IMG/VR virus record: IMGVR_UViG_3300043119_000108
Coordinates: 1 to 40,762 of that record
Strand: one strand, 5' to 3'
Origin: a virus
Length of the DNA: 40,762 bases
The notes under the pieces: generated by a model
Told to the model about the DNA's origin: nothing
The model's database searches: none
The model's input: only the letters and a program-made list of their open reading frames with translations
Position numbers and translations under genes: made by a program
Shown here: positions 1 through 40,402 of the stretch, in pieces
Position numbering within the stretch: the first letter of the stretch is position 1
How the letters are laid out: each line of letters opens with the position of its first letter

Positions 1-131
1 TACTATCTCGTACTTTTCTCCCCTACCTATATTAGGCGCAATATTTATACCCATTTTGCGTTTTTCTAATGTGATGTCGCACACAGTATAACTGATCGCG
101 GCGAAACCGCAGGTCAAGCCGTAGATTGGGT
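1..131. repeat. Left copy of 131-bp terminal direct repeat
   Basis: These 131 bases recur in the same orientation at 40632-40762. I see one difference: T at 127 against C at 40758. The repeat is non-coding and AT-rich in its first half. It means either short direct terminal repeats of a linear virion genome or the overlap left when a circular contig was cut. The single mismatch argues against a pure assembler k-mer overlap, which would be exact. Confidence 0.9.
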
Positions 132-207
132 GCTTCGACTTTATCAAAAATATTTTTCTGGGGAGTATATAGACGGACCGCGTCGCCGTTAACAACCGCG
201 GGTCCCG

Positions 208-269
208 TTTTCCACAGGTTGGGGATAACGCTGTGGATAACTTTGGCCTGTGGATAAGGTTGTGGATAA
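208..269 (+). other. Putative replication origin: cluster of DnaA-box-like sites
   Basis: Three exact TGTGGATAA 9-mers lie at 232-240, 249-257 and 261-269. A one-mismatch copy (TGGGGATAA) lies at 220-228, and an opposite-strand one-mismatch copy (TTTTCCACA) at 208-216. TTATCCACA is the classical DnaA box, so this is five boxes in 62 bp, with starts 12, 17 and 12 bp apart for the four same-strand copies. A tandem repeat (356-384) and an AT-rich stretch (about 435-490) follow, which resembles a bacterial origin with an unwinding element. It sits in the main non-coding region between the late and rightward operons. Origin function is inferred. Confidence 0.65.
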
Positions 270-355
270 GTTTTAAAGAAAGTTGGAGGGCTTTCTAGTT
301 CCTCGGCACCCTAAACCTTTTTAATATCTGCCAACCATCGGCCCAAGACTGGCGA

Positions 356-384
356 CCCCTGACCCTTTGGCCCCTGACCCTTGG
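356..384. repeat. Tandem 15/14-bp repeat beside the origin
   Basis: CCCCTGACCCTTTGG (356-370) is followed directly by CCCCTGACCCTTGG (371-384), which is the same unit less one T. The repeat lies between the DnaA-box cluster and the AT-rich segment. It could be an iteron-like protein-binding array, but two copies are few and no Rep protein is recognised. Confidence 0.6.
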
Positions 385-387
385 CCC

Positions 388-400
388 TTTAATGATCTTG
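388..400. repeat. 13-bp dispersed repeat, copy 1
   Basis: TTTAATGATCTTG occurs here and again at 542-554, in the same orientation, both inside the non-coding leader before the first rightward gene. The two copies flank the AT-rich putative promoter segment. Their role is unknown; paired binding sites are one option. Confidence 0.5.
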
Positions 401-435
401 AAGCCTCGACCCTTCAGCTCGAACAGTTGTTCGCT

Positions 436-482
436 TTACATAATGTAAGAGCTTTTACATTTGATAATTACTGGAATTAAAT
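436..482 (+). promoter_or_regulatory. Putative rightward promoter with palindromic operator-like site
   Basis: A perfect palindrome TTACAT-A-ATGTAA lies at 436-448. Just after it TTTACA (454-459), a 17-bp spacer and TTAAAT (477-482) form a plausible but weak -35/-10 pair. This is the most AT-rich part of the leader and lies 150 bp upstream of the first rightward gene, so it could drive the 632-4829 operon, serve as an unwinding element, or both. Nothing else coding is visible between 1 and 631. Confidence 0.35.
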
Positions 483-541
483 CCTGGTAACTTACTCGCT
501 AGTAACATCTCACCTCTTGCCCTGCCCTGCCGCAACGAGCT

Positions 542-3232: not shown

Positions 3233-3521
3233 AAACAAACGAATCGCAAGAGAATATAGTCGCGCTCTCGGATATACGAAGAGAGAGACAGAGTGCCTCA
3301 TCACCCTTTGGACCGCTGAATCCCGCTTCGACCACCTTGCTCGCCCAAGAAACGCACAGGGCGTACCAGTTAGCTCAGCTTTCGGAATTGCTCAACTCCT
3401 TAGAGAGCGAAGTGGAGAGCCTGAACTACAAGTCCTTCACGGCTTACGATACCTTAGCAAGCGCTACCGAGAATCTGCGTGCCGTGCTCTTGCCCATCAT
3501 AGAACAAGAGGGTGGTACTGA
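3216..3521 (+). CDS. Small SLT/lysozyme-like muralytic protein
   Basis: The 101-residue product reads as a lysozyme-like (soluble lytic transglycosylase) domain of the short actinobacterial type. It has ECLITLWTAESRFD with the catalytic-position Glu, the SAFGIAQ motif, a helix LQVLHGLRYLSKRY and the terminal ALAHHRTRGWY. The start ATG 3216 has AAAGG five bases upstream. The frame is open from 3084, and a start there would add a hydrophobic segment (GSVLILLLVVLSLL) that could be a signal anchor, but it lies wholly inside the 2948-3232 gene. Its stop TGA overlaps the methyltransferase start (TGATG). It should cleave peptidoglycan glycan strands. Confidence 0.65.
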   Translation: MEEKSENKRIAREYSRALGYTKRETECLITLWTAESRFDHLARPRNAQGVPVSSAFGIAQLLRERSGEPELQVLHGLRYLSKRYRESACRALAHHRTRGWY

Positions 3522-3528
3522 TGAGTAA
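3229..3528 (+). CDS. Alternative-frame protein nested over the SLT gene (99 aa)
   Basis: GTG 3229 overlaps the previous TGA and has a strong GGAGG at 3218-3222. This frame is +1 relative to the SLT gene and covers nearly all of it. The product has a helical, acidic second half (LAQLSELLNSLESEVESLNY) and ends EQEGGTDE, which looks protein-like. Either both frames are used or this one is an over-print shadow. The SLT frame has the recognisable domain, so I rate this one lower. Confidence 0.4.
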   Translation: MKTNESQENIVALSDIRRERQSASSPFGPLNPASTTLLAQETHRAYQLAQLSELLNSLESEVESLNYKSFTAYDTLASATENLRAVLLPIIEQEGGTDE

Positions 3529-4366
3529 TCTAACAGGCGTATCCCTATTCGCTGGAGTAGGTGGGTTCGATCTCGCTATGGAACGACAGGGAGTTAAGGT
3601 CGTAGCGTCAGTAGAGATAGATAAGAAATGCCAAGAGATATTGGCCAAGCAGTTTCCTAATACAACAATCTTCAACGACATAACAGAAGTGAAAGGTAGT
3701 GATCTAATTGGAGCAGGATTTGAACCAAGCAGAGGTATTATTACAGGAGGATTTCCCTGCCAAGACGTCAGCGTTGCTGGCAAAAGAGCTGGTCTTGCTG
3801 GCAACCGAAGCGGGCTTTTCTGGGAGGCTGCAAGAGTTGTGGAAGAAGCGCAAGCCGAGTATTTCGTCATCGAAAACGTCCCTGGTTTGCTATCCAGTAA
3901 CGACGGAAAAGATTTTGGAGTCGTCATCGGGACGATGGCCGACCTCGGGTATTCTGTCAGCTGGCGTTTGCTTGATGCTCAATACTTCGGCGTACCCCAG
4001 CGAAGGAAACGTATCTTCATCGCTGGACGACGTGCTGCTAACGGAAGCGCCGGAGAAATACTCTTTAAGTCCAAAGGCTTGCGAGGGAATTCTACGCAGA
4101 TCAGCGGGCAGGGGGAAGAAACTACCGGACGAACTGCACGAAGCTTTGGTCAATCAAGTTTCGCAGGGTACACAGAAGGACCAGCAACCATAACTGCTAC
4201 TAGTTACAAGCGACCTGAAGATAATGTAGTAGTACATAGTGGCTTCACTCCATCATCGTTTGCCCAATACTCAGAAGGTATTGGAACCCTTCGTGCTAGT
4301 GGAGGTGATTTAGGTGGAGGTAGTGAAACCCTTGTGGTTCGTCAAGGCAAGGAGAGCACAGAATGA
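3521..4366 (+). CDS. C5-cytosine DNA methyltransferase, N-terminal part (motifs I-VIII)
   Basis: This part transfers methyl from SAM to cytosine C5 in DNA. Seen motifs, numbered from ATG 3521: I, SLFAGVGGFDLA (8-19); IV, GGFPCQDVS with catalytic Cys80; VI, IENVPG (118-122); VIII, QRRKRIFIAG (160-169). The following roughly 100 residues are Gly/Ser/Thr-rich, as expected for a variable target-recognition region. The frame stops at 4366 before motifs IX and X, which continue in a +1-shifted frame from 4314. No restriction endonuclease gene is recognised nearby, so a solitary phage methyltransferase shielding its DNA from host restriction is the likely role. Confidence 0.85.
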   Translation: MSNLTGVSLFAGVGGFDLAMERQGVKVVASVEIDKKCQEILAKQFPNTTIFNDITEVKGSDLIGAGFEPSRGIITGGFPCQDVSVAGKRAGLAGNRSGLFWEAARVVEEAQAEYFVIENVPGLLSSNDGKDFGVVIGTMADLGYSVSWRLLDAQYFGVPQRRKRIFIAGRRAANGSAGEILFKSKGLRGNSTQISGQGEETTGRTARSFGQSSFAGYTEGPATITATSYKRPEDNVVVHSGFTPSSFAQYSEGIGTLRASGGDLGGGSETLVVRQGKESTE

Positions 4367-4829
4367 GAACGATTACGAAACTTGGATCGAGGGAGGGGTG
4401 GTTCCTACCTTGAACACATTCGATAACGGTGATGTGCGAGCAACTACTATTGTCTTTCACCCTCACTATCACGATGGAGCAAGACCACAAGGAGACACTA
4501 TTAACACCCTTACTGCACGTATGGGCACAGGAGGGAACAACGTTTCAATGGTAGCTTCAACAGTACGTTTCAGAGGAGGCAAGCCAGGTGGAGGCAAAGG
4601 TCCACTCGTAGCAGATGGGATTTCGCAAGTGCTTACTACACCTAATGACCAGTTACTATTCGCTAGTGATGTCAGGCGCCTCACGCCTGTCGAATGCGAA
4701 AGGTTACAGGGATTCCCTGATAACTGGACTGAAGGTCAAGCAGACTCACATAGATATAAGCAGATGGGAAACGCCGTAGCCGTTCCTGTGGTTGAATGGA
4801 TCATTCAGAACATCTGTGATACTCTTTGA
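4314..4829 (+). CDS. C5-cytosine DNA methyltransferase, C-terminal part (motifs IX-X)
   Basis: Contains the C-terminal motifs of the enzyme above: RRLTPVECERLQGFPDNWT (IX and flank) and QMGNAVAVPV (X). It lies in the +1 frame and overlaps the upstream ORF by 53 bases. A GTG at 4314 is preceded by GGAGGTGAT (4301-4309), a near-perfect Shine-Dalgarno; a second GTG at 4323 has its own GGAGG. So it could be a separate beta subunit, as in split enzymes of the M.AquI type, or the product of a frameshift mutation or a sequencing error. The rightward terminator follows. Confidence 0.75.
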   Translation: MEVVKPLWFVKARRAQNENDYETWIEGGVVPTLNTFDNGDVRATTIVFHPHYHDGARPQGDTINTLTARMGTGGNNVSMVASTVRFRGGKPGGGKGPLVADGISQVLTTPNDQLLFASDVRRLTPVECERLQGFPDNWTEGQADSHRYKQMGNAVAVPVVEWIIQNICDTL

Positions 4830-7278: not shown

Positions 7279-7929
7279 CTATCCAACCTGCTCACCTACT
7301 AGCAAGGCTTTGGTTGCATCTGCACCGTGAGCCAAGTAGTAGTCGTTAATGTCCATCCCTGGTGGTAATTGTACTATTTGACTGTTTAATACCTCGGTGG
7401 CGACACGCTTAGCAAACTCAGCACCTGGGTTACTGCCGTCATCTTTGACATCGTTATCACCTACCACGTAGACAGTGTCATAACCATTAAAGAGCTTGGC
7501 AAAGTGTGGCTTCCAAGCCTGTACCCCAGGTACACCAACGGCTGGTATACCTAGGACACCGCTTGTAACAACAGTATCTAACTCACCTTCACACACCACG
7601 ATATGTGGTGATTGAACAAGCACATCAGTTACGTTATACAGGTGTGCCTTCTGACCTAATGGACTGCCATACTTAGGCTTACCATCATCTAATCTGCGGA
7701 ACTTAAAGCCTACGCAATGGTTCATCGCCGTGATGTACGGGATACTTATCCATCCCTCGTACATCTCGTGACCGTTAATCGGATCAGTGATAGTACCGAG
7801 CTGAAACCTAGCGGCTACGGACTCAGAGATCCCACGTTCGGCTAGCGCGACGAGTGCCTCTGGACTTATTTCCTGGGCGTATCGCTGCGCCGCTTCCATT
7901 AGCAATTTCGATTGCGCGTTTGAGGCCAT
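7279..7929 (-). CDS. DNA primase, Toprim part
   Basis: The 216-residue product has the DnaG-type middle (VALAERGISESVAARFQLG) and a Toprim domain with IVVCEGELDTVV (Glu114) and VYVVGDNDV (157-160), the metal-binding acidic residues. It overlaps the zinc-finger ORF by 107 bases in a +1-shifted frame. Its own ATG 7929 has GGAG seven bases upstream, so it can be made as a separate polypeptide. It lacks the CHC2 zinc finger, which is in the upstream gene. Together they would synthesise RNA primers next to the phage helicase. Confidence 0.8.
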   Translation of the reverse strand: MASNAQSKLLMEAAQRYAQEISPEALVALAERGISESVAARFQLGTITDPINGHEMYEGWISIPYITAMNHCVGFKFRRLDDGKPKYGSPLGQKAHLYNVTDVLVQSPHIVVCEGELDTVVTSGVLGIPAVGVPGVQAWKPHFAKLFNGYDTVYVVGDNDVKDDGSNPGAEFAKRVATEVLNSQIVQLPPGMDINDYYLAHGADATKALLVGEQVG

Positions 7930-8200
7930 CGTTAAACTCCAAGTTCTCTAATATGCAGACAAGGTTGGCCGCATTACCACCCTTACCGCAGGTGTGGCAG
8001 TAGTACAAGTTATCGTACGTATTAATGACAGCTGACCTACGGCTGTCACTGTGTAAGCAACACCTTACTGATGCTGACTTACCTTCTCTTACTTCACCGC
8101 CAAAGAATCTGACGATGGCATCTATTGGGATGTCGTTTGCGTCTACTTTCCCTTTAAACTTTCCCGTCTTACGTATCCTGGACCAGTCTTGTGCTGGCAT
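7823..8200 (-). CDS. DNA primase, CHC2 zinc-finger part
   Basis: From ATG 8200 the 125-residue product carries the CHC2 primase zinc finger: CCLHSD (Cys47, His50) and YYCHTCGKGGNAANL (Cys68, Cys71), then FNDGLKRAIEIA. GAGGGG precedes this start. A further ATG at 8215 is possible but has no ribosome-binding site. The last 30 residues overlap the Toprim ORF and turn basic and low-complexity (NKSRGTRRASR), which may mean the authentic protein shifts into the Toprim frame. Primase activity would need both parts. Confidence 0.7.
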   Translation of the reverse strand: MPAQDWSRIRKTGKFKGKVDANDIPIDAIVRFFGGEVREGKSASVRCCLHSDSRRSAVINTYDNLYYCHTCGKGGNAANLVCILENLEFNDGLKRAIEIANGSGAAIRPGNKSRGTRRASRTWDL

Positions 8201-8295
8201 ACGCACCCCTCGCATTGTTCGTGATGTGCTTCGCTGAGCTTAATTTGATTCAAGCGATTGTATTCGCCTGCATCTATACAAGGTTGACAGATCAT
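8143..8295 (-). CDS. Zinc-binding microprotein (50 aa)
   Basis: ATG 8295 overlaps the preceding stop (ATGA at 8292-8295). The product has CQPC near the N-terminus and HHEQCEGCVCQH in the middle, a likely zinc site, and ends KGK. It fills the gap between the 8292-8519 gene and the primase and overlaps the primase start by 58 bases in another frame. I recall similar CxxC...CxGCxCQH small proteins beside primase genes in actinophages. Function unknown. Confidence 0.6.
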   Translation of the reverse strand: MICQPCIDAGEYNRLNQIKLSEAHHEQCEGCVCQHKTGPGYVRRESLKGK

Positions 8296-8519: not shown

Positions 8520-8655
8520 CTGGTAACTCCTCTTCGATAATCTCTACTAAGCGCTCATCGTCTTCAACTGTAGACAACGCTTCAGCAAGTTCTACTGATT
8601 CTAATGGATCTACTGGACCCTCCGATGTACTGATTACTCCGTGTGGTACTGGCAT
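8491..8655 (-). CDS. Small acidic protein (54 aa)
   Basis: ATG 8655 has AAGGAG upstream and overlaps the previous stop as TAATG. The 54-residue product is strongly acidic (VEDDERLVEIIEEELPGEPD), without cysteines or membrane segments. Acidic small phage proteins can mimic DNA, but nothing specific shows that here. Confidence 0.6.
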   Translation of the reverse strand: MPVPHGVISTSEGPVDPLESVELAEALSTVEDDERLVEIIEEELPGEPDTIQED

Positions 8656-9011
8656 TATTCTTTCTCCTTTATCCATTGTTCGAGTGAGCAGATTACCCAC
8701 GCTTTTCCTATGCTGGAGTTGCGACGCTTAACTATGACATAAGCAGGTGGCACTTCTCCTATACCACGAGCCTTAGCATAGTTATGCGCCTCAACCTCAG
8801 CCTCAGCCCAGAACTCTGGTAAGTTCAAGGACTTTCTGTTTTTTAACTCTAGTATGTAGGTCTTCCCCGCGACCATTACAACTAGGTCCCCTTCATCCTT
8901 GCTTCCGGCTTTAGTCAGGCGTTCCGCCAGGACACCTGGTATGCCTCGCAAGAATTTCATTACGTCAGTCTCAAAGACTGCGCCCTTTACTCGATCATAC
9001 TTACTTGCCAT
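8655..9011 (-). CDS. Hjc-like Holliday-junction resolvase / PD-(D/E)XK nuclease
   Basis: From ATG 9011 the product has 118 residues with the archaeal-type resolvase pattern: Glu14 in GAVFETDVMKFL, Asp42 in KDEGDLVVM and E55-x-K57 in YILELKN, followed by a helix and a closing strand (AYVIVKRR). It would resolve branched replication intermediates before packaging. A longer start at 9047 would overlap the upstream gene by 47 bases and has no ribosome-binding site; 9011 overlaps it by 11. Confidence 0.75.
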   Translation of the reverse strand: MASKYDRVKGAVFETDVMKFLRGIPGVLAERLTKAGSKDEGDLVVMVAGKTYILELKNRKSLNLPEFWAEAEVEAHNYAKARGIGEVPPAYVIVKRRNSSIGKAWVICSLEQWIKEKE

Positions 9012-9159
9012 CTTTACCTGTATCGTAGACGGCGTTGCCATCTTCATCTACGGTAATCTTAAATACTTTAAGTTCAATCAAGGCCATCACCATATTACGC
9101 ATATCGTTCTCTAGCTGATTGACACGTTTCTTTAGGTATTGGATCTCTGTGTTAGCCAT
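9001..9159 (-). CDS. Small coiled-coil protein (52 aa)
   Basis: ATG 9159 has GGAGG six bases upstream. The product starts with a heptad-like helix (NTEIQYLKKRVNQLENDM) and ends with a beta-hairpin-like VFKITVDEDGNAVYDTGKDG. It overlaps both neighbours by 8-11 bases, typical of this operon. Function unknown. Confidence 0.6.
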   Translation of the reverse strand: MANTEIQYLKKRVNQLENDMRNMVMALIELKVFKITVDEDGNAVYDTGKDGK

Positions 9160-9337
9160 TGTCATCCTCCATTAAGTACTGGGCATACTGTCTAAATAGT
9201 TCGCACGCTGTAATGCCACGGTTACGTGCCTCTTGATGGATAGCATCACGCTCTGCTTTAGATAGACGTACCTGAAAGGTAGTGCGCTTATCTTCTTTGT
9301 AACGTGCAGTCCACTTGTTTACTGTTTCTGTGCTCAC
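9152..9337 (-). CDS. Ribbon-helix-helix-like small protein (61 aa)
   Basis: GTG 9337 with GAGGTAG upstream; the start overlaps the helicase stop (GTGA). The core TTFQVRLSKAERDAIHQEAR followed by RGITACELFRQYAQYL is a strand-helix-helix arrangement like CopG/Arc or mobilisation-type ribbon-helix-helix proteins. A DNA-binding repressor or accessory role in replication is inferred. Confidence 0.65.
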   Translation of the reverse strand: MSTETVNKWTARYKEDKRTTFQVRLSKAERDAIHQEARNRGITACELFRQYAQYLMEDDNG

Positions 9338-10209
9338 GCATCTACCTCATTTCCGTATTCGTCTACCACATAGTTGCCTGTGTACCCATACCTTGCATCC
9401 CTCTGAAGCATTGCACCAAAGGCATTGCGGTCAGTGATCTGACACGCACCATAGTTTACATTCAACGCTGCATAATCTGAAGCATCTGCTGTGTGTGGAC
9501 CAAAGCGGTTCTTAACAGCGGCTATATTCAGTTCTGCATTGTTTGGATCGTAACCCAGTGTAAGGATCAGTGCTGGTAGCTGGCTGACCTTACCGTGGAT
9601 AGCACGTCTGGCTGGTGGTCTAGTAGGTGACCCATACTCTGACTGCTCAGAGACGTGGTGTAGTACTAGTACGCACGCTTCAGTCTTACGTGCCATATCG
9701 TGAAGTTCCATCATAATCGCACGCAGGCCTGCCCATTCGTTATCAGTCTCTGCTGCTACGTTCATTAAGTTATCTATTACAATTAACTCAGGTGCCTCAC
9801 CGTAAAGTTCTACGTAGGCTTTGATCTCTAGTTCAATATCATCTAGTGATGGCGATGAATCAAAGACCCATTTGATGTGCTTCAGTTTGTCAAAGTGCTT
9901 GTCGTAATAGTGACTATCGGCAGATAGGTTCTGTTCAACTGTTAACTGATTATGACCAGATGAATGTGCTGCTGCACGCATCATCACAGTTGTAGTATCA
10001 GTATCAGCTGAGAAGAATAAAGTCGGTACATTTGCCTTGATTGAATAGATCAATGCAAACATAGACTTACCAGCGTTAGGTGCGGCCGCAACCATACAGA
10101 CCTGTCCCCTTCGGAACTTAATCTGCTTGGCTGCTAGCCCTTCCCAAACATCAGGTAGAGGTGTGGCCTTGGTGAGGACTGTGCCCCACGCCCGTTGCAA
10201 AGTTAACAA
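9334..10209 (-). CDS. DnaB/RecA-fold replicative helicase-like ATPase
   Basis: The 291-residue product is a RecA-fold ATPase without the DnaB N-terminal domain. Walker A is AAAPNAGKS (about 41-49), Walker B is ELIVIDN (141-147), then VLHHVSEQS and a basic PTRPPARRAIHGK stretch as in DnaB/RepA-type helicases. The start is TTG 10209, chosen because GGAGG sits six bases upstream; it overlaps the WhiB gene by 59 bases. It most likely unwinds DNA together with the split primase. Loading by a host factor or a hexamer that self-loads cannot be told apart here. Confidence 0.8.
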   Translation of the reverse strand: MLTLQRAWGTVLTKATPLPDVWEGLAAKQIKFRRGQVCMVAAAPNAGKSMFALIYSIKANVPTLFFSADTDTTTVMMRAAAHSSGHNQLTVEQNLSADSHYYDKHFDKLKHIKWVFDSSPSLDDIELEIKAYVELYGEAPELIVIDNLMNVAAETDNEWAGLRAIMMELHDMARKTEACVLVLHHVSEQSEYGSPTRPPARRAIHGKVSQLPALILTLGYDPNNAELNIAAVKNRFGPHTADASDYAALNVNYGACQITDRNAFGAMLQRDARYGYTGNYVVDEYGNEVDA

Positions 10210-10871: not shown

Positions 10872-11831
10872 TTACTTTCCTCCATTAGTTTTTATTGTGA
10901 GTCTTACTGATTCGTTACCGACAACCTTCGGTATAAACCCTAGAAGTTTCTCAACTTCTTTACTGTCTACTGTCTCACGACCTTTAACAGTTGTCCAACT
11001 GATTTCAATACCGCTACGAGTAGTACCAGTATTGCCTTCTAGCGAAGCCTTGAAGGAATCCCGTTCCTTCTCCAGCTCTTTAATCTTTGCATCTAACTGT
11101 AGATAGTGCAACGCATTCTTGTCAACTTCTTCGTCCTCAATCACTACTTCACTAAGGACGATACGTTCTTTTTTTAAGCCACCGCAACCCATCATCTCAC
11201 TAGCATCGTAGTATTGGCAATAGTCTTTACAGAATGACTGATCCTTTTCAGGTTCAGGCAACGTCGCTGATGTCTTGACTTCATTCAACCAAGCAAATGC
11301 TTCTAGTGCAATAGCTTCATCGTATGCCTCGGTATGTACCTTGACATCTTTCTCAGATCCATCACGAGCAATGGCTACCAGGTTAACTGTCTTAACTTCA
11401 TAACCATTCTTAGATAGCAGATAGCCATAGACCTGCACCTGCCAACGCTGTTGCTTTGATGGGAAGTAAGAAAGGTTCTTCACCTTGCTTGTCTTCCAGT
11501 CAATGACAGCGCCAGTACTAGGTACGAACAAGTCAACGTGTGCTTTCATATCACCGAAGGCAACCTCGGTTTCAACCAAGTACTCCTTACCTTCAGGATC
11601 AACGTGGCCAATAGCATCTTCGATTGCTGCGTGGATAGCGGTACCCATAATGGCTGCAAGCTTGGACTGATTCTCATTAGTCTCAGGTTGTGCATTCAAG
11701 CGGTACCAAACCTTGCGACGGCAACCACCAATCTCTGATGGTCCTACCTGTGTTTGTTTACTACGGTCACGACTTGCATCTTTGTTATGCAGTACGTGCA
11801 GTAGTAATTCTTTCGGATCTTCTATCGCCAC
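10872..11831 (-). CDS. RecB/Cas4-like PD-(D/E)XK exonuclease with putative Fe-S cluster
   Basis: RecB-family nuclease motifs are seen in order: MGTAIHAAIE (His67), AHVDLF (Asp100), VIDWKTSK (D111-x-K113) and QVQVYGYLL (Gln131, Tyr135). An N-terminal Cys37 (GGCRRKVWY) and a C-terminal C-x3-C-x10-C (FCKDYCQYY...GC) resemble the Fe-S ligands of Cas4/AddB nucleases. The C-terminal part adds a coiled coil (LDAKIKELEKERD) and a domain as in phage recombination exonucleases. Expected role: 5' or 3' end processing for recombination. The start is GTG 11831, overlapping the upstream gene by 10 bases. Confidence 0.85.
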   Translation of the reverse strand: MAIEDPKELLLHVLHNKDASRDRSKQTQVGPSEIGGCRRKVWYRLNAQPETNENQSKLAAIMGTAIHAAIEDAIGHVDPEGKEYLVETEVAFGDMKAHVDLFVPSTGAVIDWKTSKVKNLSYFPSKQQRWQVQVYGYLLSKNGYEVKTVNLVAIARDGSEKDVKVHTEAYDEAIALEAFAWLNEVKTSATLPEPEKDQSFCKDYCQYYDASEMMGCGGLKKERIVLSEVVIEDEEVDKNALHYLQLDAKIKELEKERDSFKASLEGNTGTTRSGIEISWTTVKGRETVDSKEVEKLLGFIPKVVGNESVRLTIKTNGGK

Positions 11832-38542: not shown

Positions 38543-40402
38543 TTAGACGAAGTGTTTATTTTGTTCTAGTAGCATTTCGTCAATGTTGACGACAATTCTT
38601 CTGCCCTGTTCTGCTCGTGAGAGGAACGGGTTCTTCATATGGTGGGTTGCATACTGGCCGTAGTTGAGCATTTCACGTGCTCGGATCTCACAGAACCAGA
38701 GAGCCATTACCATATCTGTCTTACCCTTGGTGGTCGGGGTCCACGTAATCAACTGCTCGATAAGAGCCTTGACCATCTCTGACTGATCACTAGGTAAATG
38801 TATTAAATTATCTCGGTGATGCTTTCCGTCTTGTTGCTTAGTCCCGAAAAGGGTAGACATAGATGCAACACCAAAGCCTGAGTCCCACTTGTTATTGCCA
38901 GTATGGTGTTCCTTAAGGATAATGCCACGGCTAGCAAGGTGTTGCTTGATGCCTTCGTCCTGAGTTAGGAACGCCTGAAAAGCATTCTTCTCAATGATCC
39001 ACTCGGCAGGACTATAAAGAGAAGTCCAGTTAATAATAATGTCACGAATCTGTTGCGGTGACGGGCGAGTAATCTTAATAGCGTCAAGGATGTATCTCTT
39101 ACTAGTAGAACGGTCAATGGCGTAAGCGACAGCGGCCGTATCTCCCACAATAGCTGGGTCCATACCACAGACAACTGTGAAGCCCTGTATGTTAGATGGA
39201 TGTCCTGGGTATCCTGGCTCTAATCGGCCAGCCTTACGCATTCCATCTATAGAACCTTTTACACAAACTGGGTCAAAGGCTGAGTTCTCAGATATATCCT
39301 GTTGCTGATATACCAAAGCCCACGTACTTGAATCCATCGCCTGACGTTCGTTGTACAAGTTGCGACCAGACCAGCGGGGATATAACCCATTCTCGTCTTG
39401 ATCGTCTTCACCTTGTCCATCAAAGGGCATATCTGACTTTGGCCAGAGAGTTACCCACTTATCAGGGTCTTCGTCTGCTTCCAGAAGGGCTGGCATAGCC
39501 AGATATGTCCAAGGTACTAAACCGCCAGGGTAGCGATCTTCGGAGCGTAGCTCACGATATAGGTCTACGGAAGCCACACGGGTTCCGATAACAATCAATT
39601 TACCAGTAGGGTTAAGACGGGATCGAACGTCCTGTGTCAACCAACGGATCTGCTTTTCAAACTCATTAGCGTTCTTCAAGGTAACGGCGTCGTCGACGAT
39701 AATCATATCTGCACGCTTACCGTAAATCTGACCGCCGATACCGACGGCTTCAATATTCGGATCCTTTTCAGATGACTCACGGAGTTCATCACCAAAGGTC
39801 ACACGAGTTGCTGCCCACGTAGCGGACTTACTATTAAAGCCGACACCGGCGGCGTAGGCCTGCTGGAATGTCTCGTACTGCGGATGGGTCAATCTTTGCT
39901 TAATAGCGTAAAGGAAATCTGCCGCTAGCTGCTGAGTCTGAGAAACAATCAGTACTCGGAAGTTCGGATTCTGAGCCACCTTCATAGTCACGTACTCGAC
40001 CGTGATCGACATCGACTTGGCGTGGTTCGGAGGAATATTGATCAGGATACGGTTTGAGTTCAAACCCTTTTCAAACTTCATATTGGGATGTAGCCAAGAC
40101 GGGTCGCGTCCCTCAATTACATCTACCAGATTCTGCTGGTGCGGAAAGACCTTGTGGTTCATATAGCGTTCGCAGAACTCGGCGTAACTAAGATCGTGGG
40201 CATCGGCCTCAGCAAAATTCTTAGTCTTTAATCCTAGGCGAGTTCTATCTGCCTTGTCAGCAAAAGCCTTATCTGATCGACGGTAGTACTCGTAAGTCTT
40301 ACCGGATTTGCCAGCCGCGGCACAAGCCGCTTCCACTGTCATACCTTCTGCCATAGCTCCGAGAATAATTCTCTTGGCTATATCGGCGGAATTCTCTGCC
40401 AT
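38543..40402 (-). CDS. terL: Terminase large subunit with N-terminal HTH-like segment
   Basis: First gene of the late operon; ATG 40402 has AGGAG upstream. It packages DNA: the ATPase shows a Walker A-like PPNHAKSM (124-131) and Walker B MIIVDDAV (233-240), and the nuclease has CGMDPAIVGDT (Asp415), WIIEKNAF (Glu471) and a later KTDMVMALWF Asp. The first 60 residues (GMTVEAACAAAGKSGKTYEY) look like a helix-turn-helix, as in small terminases, and no separate small subunit is recognised, so recognition may be fused in. Confidence 0.9.
   Translation of the reverse strand: MAENSADIAKRIILGAMAEGMTVEAACAAAGKSGKTYEYYRRSDKAFADKADRTRLGLKTKNFAEADAHDLSYAEFCERYMNHKVFPHQQNLVDVIEGRDPSWLHPNMKFEKGLNSNRILINIPPNHAKSMSITVEYVTMKVAQNPNFRVLIVSQTQQLAADFLYAIKQRLTHPQYETFQQAYAAGVGFNSKSATWAATRVTFGDELRESSEKDPNIEAVGIGGQIYGKRADMIIVDDAVTLKNANEFEKQIRWLTQDVRSRLNPTGKLIVIGTRVASVDLYRELRSEDRYPGGLVPWTYLAMPALLEADEDPDKWVTLWPKSDMPFDGQGEDDQDENGLYPRWSGRNLYNERQAMDSSTWALVYQQQDISENSAFDPVCVKGSIDGMRKAGRLEPGYPGHPSNIQGFTVVCGMDPAIVGDTAAVAYAIDRSTSKRYILDAIKITRPSPQQIRDIIINWTSLYSPAEWIIEKNAFQAFLTQDEGIKQHLASRGIILKEHHTGNNKWDSGFGVASMSTLFGTKQQDGKHHRDNLIHLPSDQSEMVKALIEQLITWTPTTKGKTDMVMALWFCEIRAREMLNYGQYATHHMKNPFLSRAEQGRRIVVNIDEMLLEQNKHFV

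Follow-up and report, generated by a model that had tools for sequence, protein, structure and literature searches.

The window, i.e., the whole stretch of 40,762 nucleotides of IMG/VR record IMGVR_UViG_3300043119_000108 that was analysed, is probably a complete phage genome of ~40.63 kb, since the 131 bases at its start are repeated, with one mismatch, at its end. Because the place of such contig-end repeats varies between genomes, they are taken as assembly overlap. The gene for the terminase large subunit (38543-40402, minus strand; profile match) and the early genes (plus strand, from 584) are divergent, with a cluster of DnaA boxes in between; the terminase gene lies downstream of the boxes on the minus strand, and the N-terminus of its product also has weak matches to terminase small subunits. 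Profile searches identified, all on the minus strand, a DnaB-like replicative helicase (9334-10209; the C-terminal ATPase part only), a split DnaG-type primase with a Toprim part (7279-7929) and a zinc-ribbon part (7823-8215), a RusA-like resolvase (8655-9047) and a Cas4/RecB-like PD-(D/E)XK nuclease (10872-11831), i.e., the primase, helicase and nucleases already recognised in an earlier note on this DNA. The phage also encodes WhiB-like and sigma-like genes, and a C-5 cytosine methylase is split across two overlapping ORFs (3512-4366 and 4314-4829). A near-identity search among phage records gave no match; among named phages, LanE43-AprF5 and E7 of Planktophila (terminase 46%) and the Streptomyces Beephvirinae (44-45%) come closest. 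The WhiB-like gene and the relatedness to these Planktophila and Streptomyces phages point to an actinobacterial host, and this small phage probably infects abundant freshwater actinobacteria.

The cluster occupies positions 208-269 and comprises five DnaA boxes within one mismatch of TTATCCACA, three of them exact, with starts spaced by 12, 12, 17 and 12 bp. The motif scan placed the first, TTTTCCACA (208-216, plus strand; one mismatch), in the opposite direction to the others and overlapping the inverted half-box of the cassette discussed below. It is followed on the minus strand by TTATCCCCA (220-228; one mismatch), an exact box (232-240) and a second tandem pair of exact boxes 12 bp apart, TGTGGATAAGGTTGTGGATAA (249-269, listed on the plus strand; boxes at 249-257 and 261-269, reading on the minus strand). 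The cluster described in the earlier note is real, and it recurs in relatives. The three exact boxes are the only ones in the whole window, whereas one-mismatch matches number 12 genome-wide against a shuffled mean of 9.3, with 12 or more in 21 of 100 shuffles. As this total is ordinary, overall box density was rejected as evidence, and the signal lies in the clustering. The tandem repeat (CCCTGACCC.TTGGCCC, at about 350-388) and the AT-rich palindromic segment (about 430-485) that had been reported next to the boxes are also present, and neither is a conserved part of the element in relatives. In a stability scan, 50-bp windows in the palindromic segment are among the least stable 0.1-2% (as around 445-485), and the AT-rich DNA around position 145 falls in the top 2.5%.

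Several other elements of the junction are conserved. The AT-rich anchor AATATTTTTGATAAAGT (138-154, minus strand), conserved in the junction alignment of relatives, serves as zero point for the offsets given here, and the conserved AT-rich segment of the junction is present in boxless relatives too. Next to the cluster lies a family-wide conserved, promoter-like element, GACCC..GTTGTTAA..TATACTCCCC (159-206, minus strand), in a place that corresponds to where the terminal repeat of the Beephvirinae has its right boundary; we infer that it is a promoter, although a consensus promoter scan gave one promoter-like match, not above shuffles. Approximately 20-25 bp from the slot that holds the boxes is an element (286-312, minus strand) with the family consensus tGCCG..g.g.tA|GtcaGCCC on the terminase strand, inside which the contigs of several relatives start. 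It is possibly a genome terminus or the edge of a terminal repeat, and appears homologous to the Beephvirinae terminal-repeat start ACA|GTCCCC. A CRP/GlxR-like palindrome, TGTGATGTCGCACA (70-83; family consensus TGTGac..A.gTCACA), is conserved across the group and also in the Beephvirinae. The motif TTGACCTGCGGTT (105-117, minus strand) also occurs in intergenic DNA of hosts, in front of dnaN, a dnaB-like gene and a cell-wall-lysis-like gene. As an oriC-specific motif CTGACCTGCGGTT was rejected, since it also precedes the dnaB-like and cell-wall genes; it is instead a candidate site for a regulator of replication and cell-wall genes (the dnaB-like and lytic-transglycosylase-like genes being named by eye). 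Early-side promoters, AT-rich opening and the DnaA-trio were judged by eye or by simple scans.

Several hundred related IMG/VR contigs were gathered by terminase or helicase homology, i.e., not chosen for boxes, and were aligned on the conserved junction sequence as common reference point; all counts of relatives and host genomes are samples among the matches listed, not totals. Of the 111 distinct relatives in the terminase-homology set, 39 have exact boxes in the corresponding junction, against none of 5660 control windows, mostly coding, from the same contigs. Relative to the anchor, 37 of the 39 have their first box at -105 to -129, typically ~115 bp before it; most boxed relatives possess just two exact boxes, and a same-direction pair 12 bp apart is the commonest spacing in the family. 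The slot is filled in 26 other relatives by a dyad of the TAGACA-N13-TGTCTA type, mostly beginning at -110 to -117 and in most cases with a 13-bp spacer (12-14 bp between the arms were permitted in the search). Boxes and dyad occur together in a single relative where about nine would be expected (P = 2e-5). P values are guides only, because the dyad, like the cassette consensus and the contig-start point, emerged during the analysis and was then counted on mostly overlapping data. On the terminase tree, explaining which phages are boxed and which are not takes 21 changes, of which 14 or more fall on well-supported branches, and the closest opposed pair shares 98.4% terminase identity. In a comparison of 10 boxed with five boxless genomes, no gene was found that distinguishes the two kinds, and all 15 encode the helicase, primase, RusA and nuclease; a small ribbon-helix-helix-like protein (9152-9337), considered as the gene explaining the boxes, occurs in just two of the genomes compared. 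On this tree, box cluster and dyad have been exchanged repeatedly among relatives while the replication genes stayed unchanged. As a host site the dyad was rejected, since its frequency (one of 61 host genomes) did not exceed that of the control.

The Streptomyces Beephvirinae (Manuel, Immanuel3) and LanE43-AprE7/F5 have homologous terminase, capsid, portal, helicase and primase as well as the conserved junction elements, but no DnaA-box cluster was seen in them. A single host strain supports growth of both cultured Planktophila phages, E7 and F5 (PMC10202952); both lack the cluster at the junction (F5 was also scanned genome-wide), and E7 carries the TAGACA-N13-TGTCTA dyad at the corresponding place.

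The arrangement of the boxes resembles a site in the genomes of presumed hosts. Of 101 genomes belonging to one actinobacterial order, 89 carry a single copy, with at most three mismatches, of a cassette, CCACAGNCTGTGGATAANNNTGTGGATAA, composed of an inverted half-box and two tandem boxes 12 bp apart (reversed control 0). This cassette or a close variant lies directly upstream of dnaA in 10 of 11 inspected actinobacterial loci, so that its position is documented for these 11 loci. The order is taken as Nanopelagicales-like on the grounds of GC content and genome size, and it is presumably that of the phage's host. The window holds a copy, CCACAGGTTGGGGATAACGCTGTGGATAA (212-240, plus strand), with two mismatches in 25 specified bases, while the next best match in the window has nine and 30 mononucleotide shuffles gave 7-10. 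Among the phages, the cassette was found within three mismatches in 16 of the 39 boxed and within five in none of the 72 boxless relatives; 20 of the boxed phages have boxes but no full cassette (no match within five mismatches). A close exact box pair also occurs in 71 of 395 genomes sampled from one actinobacterial class. Small host-type genomes (about 1.2-1.5 Mb; GC 42-48% in the stretches read) have boxes on both sides of dnaA; the two boxes of a pair are 12 bp apart upstream of dnaA but mostly 10-11 bp on the dnaN side, where trio-like repeats follow in the loci read. The phage cluster shares with bacterial oriC (dnaA-dnaN) the clustered consensus boxes near AT-rich DNA, but its layout matches the host dnaA-upstream site better than the dnaN-side oriC. 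It differs from the former in its place at the early/terminase junction, in the extra tandem pair and in being exchangeable with a dyad in relatives. We conclude that the phage probably carries a mimic of the host dnaA-upstream site, although convergence towards optimal DnaA binding may account for the likeness.

What does this site do? The earlier note had regarded it as a replication origin at which host DnaA would bind the boxes and open AT-rich DNA, the phage DnaB-like helicase and primase would load, and the host replicase would copy the genome. This is consistent with the two to five tandem consensus boxes, with the AT-rich segments around 145 and 445-485, and with a phage that has helicase and primase but neither a polymerase nor a recognisable initiator. 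PHROGs and Pfam searches revealed no DNA polymerase in the larger and most of the small unassigned ORFs, the sole "DNA polymerase" label being a collagen-repeat match in a tail-fibre-like protein; the DNA_pol_A profile had no match in the phage genome or in 24 other records, PDB sequence searches with two large unknown proteins returned no polymerase, and the scanned ORFs yielded neither an initiator nor a DnaA-like protein. The claim that the phage lacks a polymerase is, therefore, confirmed for the ORFs scanned (PHROGs, Pfam, DNA_pol_A). The step from there to a DnaA origin is not supported, because boxless relatives also lack a DNA_pol_A match and have the same replication genes, and boxes and dyad swap between near-identical phages. 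These same relatives, together with E7 and F5, which manage on one host without the cluster at the junction, argue against an origin, as do the dnaA-upstream rather than dnaN-side layout and the fact that inspection of the junction by eye revealed no canonical DnaA-trio beside the boxes. The cumulative GC-skew minimum does lie near the junction in five of seven end-repeat genomes, but the skew tracks gene direction and its maximum is at 0.85-0.91, not opposite the minimum, so that this check, which had been suggested for locating an origin, is uninformative. Phage iterons as an alternative origin were rejected, as no junction 8-mer is as enriched as the box pieces (in a set that included pattern-fetched contigs). 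The reading in the earlier note is thus supported in part, by the recurrent host-type boxes, the failure to find a polymerase and the phage's own helicase and primase, but an origin of the plain oriC type is not the best-supported reading; it ranks second, and we consider it doubtful.

Alternatively, the boxes (or the dyad) could act at a genome end or terminal repeat in the control of DNA entry, end maturation or packaging. In several relatives the contig begins at one homologous point, 20-25 bp away from the slot; contigs that reach the junction from the terminase side tend to begin 128-162 bp before the anchor, several exactly four bases before the conserved GCCC; and the terminal repeats of the Beephvirinae (275-276 bp) have their right end at the equivalent GTTGTTAA..GTG|AGTCCCC element; together, the contig starts and this homology suggest that the slot may lie in or beside a terminal repeat. 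T5-like phages (Demerecviridae) also have DnaA boxes in terminal-repeat DNA, for which a box-bearing injection stop signal has been proposed (PMC13250531), although their genomes are unrelated and much larger (about 110 kb) and the role of the boxes there is proposed, not proven. However, contig breaks may stem from hypervariable sequence, most contigs start near but not exactly at the same base, and the Beephvirinae repeats have no box clusters; we consider a terminus function unlikely. It seems even less probable that the many phage copies act as a sink that titrates host DnaA and halts host initiation: multiple high-affinity consensus boxes can titrate DnaA (datA, plasmid examples; PMC5835720), but most boxed relatives have two exact boxes only, and their position and spacing are fixed, which titration does not need. 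A chance cluster, or host oriC DNA contaminating the assembly, might be suspected from the resemblance of the boxes to host sequence; this is refuted by the 39 distinct relatives, out of 111, in which boxes return at the corresponding place, surrounded by conserved phage-specific sequence, and its probability is negligible.

Our preferred reading, held tentatively but considered more likely than a plain oriC-type origin, is that the cluster is a docking site for host DnaA acting as a regulatory operator in the junction. Host DnaA would bind the boxes cooperatively and control transcription in the junction, much as it acts at dnaA promoters, and would thereby couple phage development to its own level in the host. 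The cluster lies at a fixed place beside the conserved promoter-like, possibly terminus-proximal element at the early-gene/terminase junction, and boxes and dyad are nearly exclusive in one slot, as would be expected of interchangeable operators. A fixed slot by a promoter-like element, with two alternative fillings and unchanged replication genes, is best accommodated by an exchangeable operator. Against it, the promoter-like element may be a packaging boundary instead. Boxes upstream of dnaA are in many bacteria part of the origin too, so that likeness to this site is also compatible with origin function. The operator, origin, terminus and sink readings are not mutually exclusive and could hold together. 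For Streptomyces lividans and slow-growing mycobacteria it is established that DnaA regulates its own gene by binding directly to the dnaA promoter (PMC8203912).

Use of host DnaA by phages has precedents. Phage lambda and P1 oriR use it, with different sites and with phage initiators. The view in the earlier note that clustered boxes are uncommon in lytic-looking phages is partly right, but the T5-like phages form an exception. When the exact box dimer was searched for separately, 48 viral contigs were retrieved among the matches listed, most of them of the present group with the dimer at the junction, and some from unrelated phages. Other occurrences observed are six exact boxes in about 90 bp of a phage-like contig in an actinobacterial genome bin (L273, 8732-8823), nine in about 240 bp near terminase/portal genes of an unrelated phage contig (L249, 6679-6919; G022:26679-26919), and a near-match to the dimer close to the right genome end of Arthrobacter phage Seahorse (NC_070836.1, 56411-56433).

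The sequence comparisons suggest that the phage is plugged into the replication-control circuit of its host. It is possible, though we say so with some reserve, that widespread freshwater actinophages have a fixed regulatory slot, perhaps beside a genome end, that takes exchanged sites. One of these would copy the site through which the host's dnaA gene is autoregulated, and phage transcription or replication would then read the host's DnaA cell-cycle signal. If true, the phage would have copied the operator of the host replication initiator rather than its gene, and this would concern phages of bacteria that are probably very abundant in freshwater. The natural swaps among near-identical phages, which carry boxes, the dyad or neither, constitute a ready-made experiment on the use of DnaA to the phage, and cultured relatives, E7 and F5 on "Ca. 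Planktophila," exist (PMC10202952).
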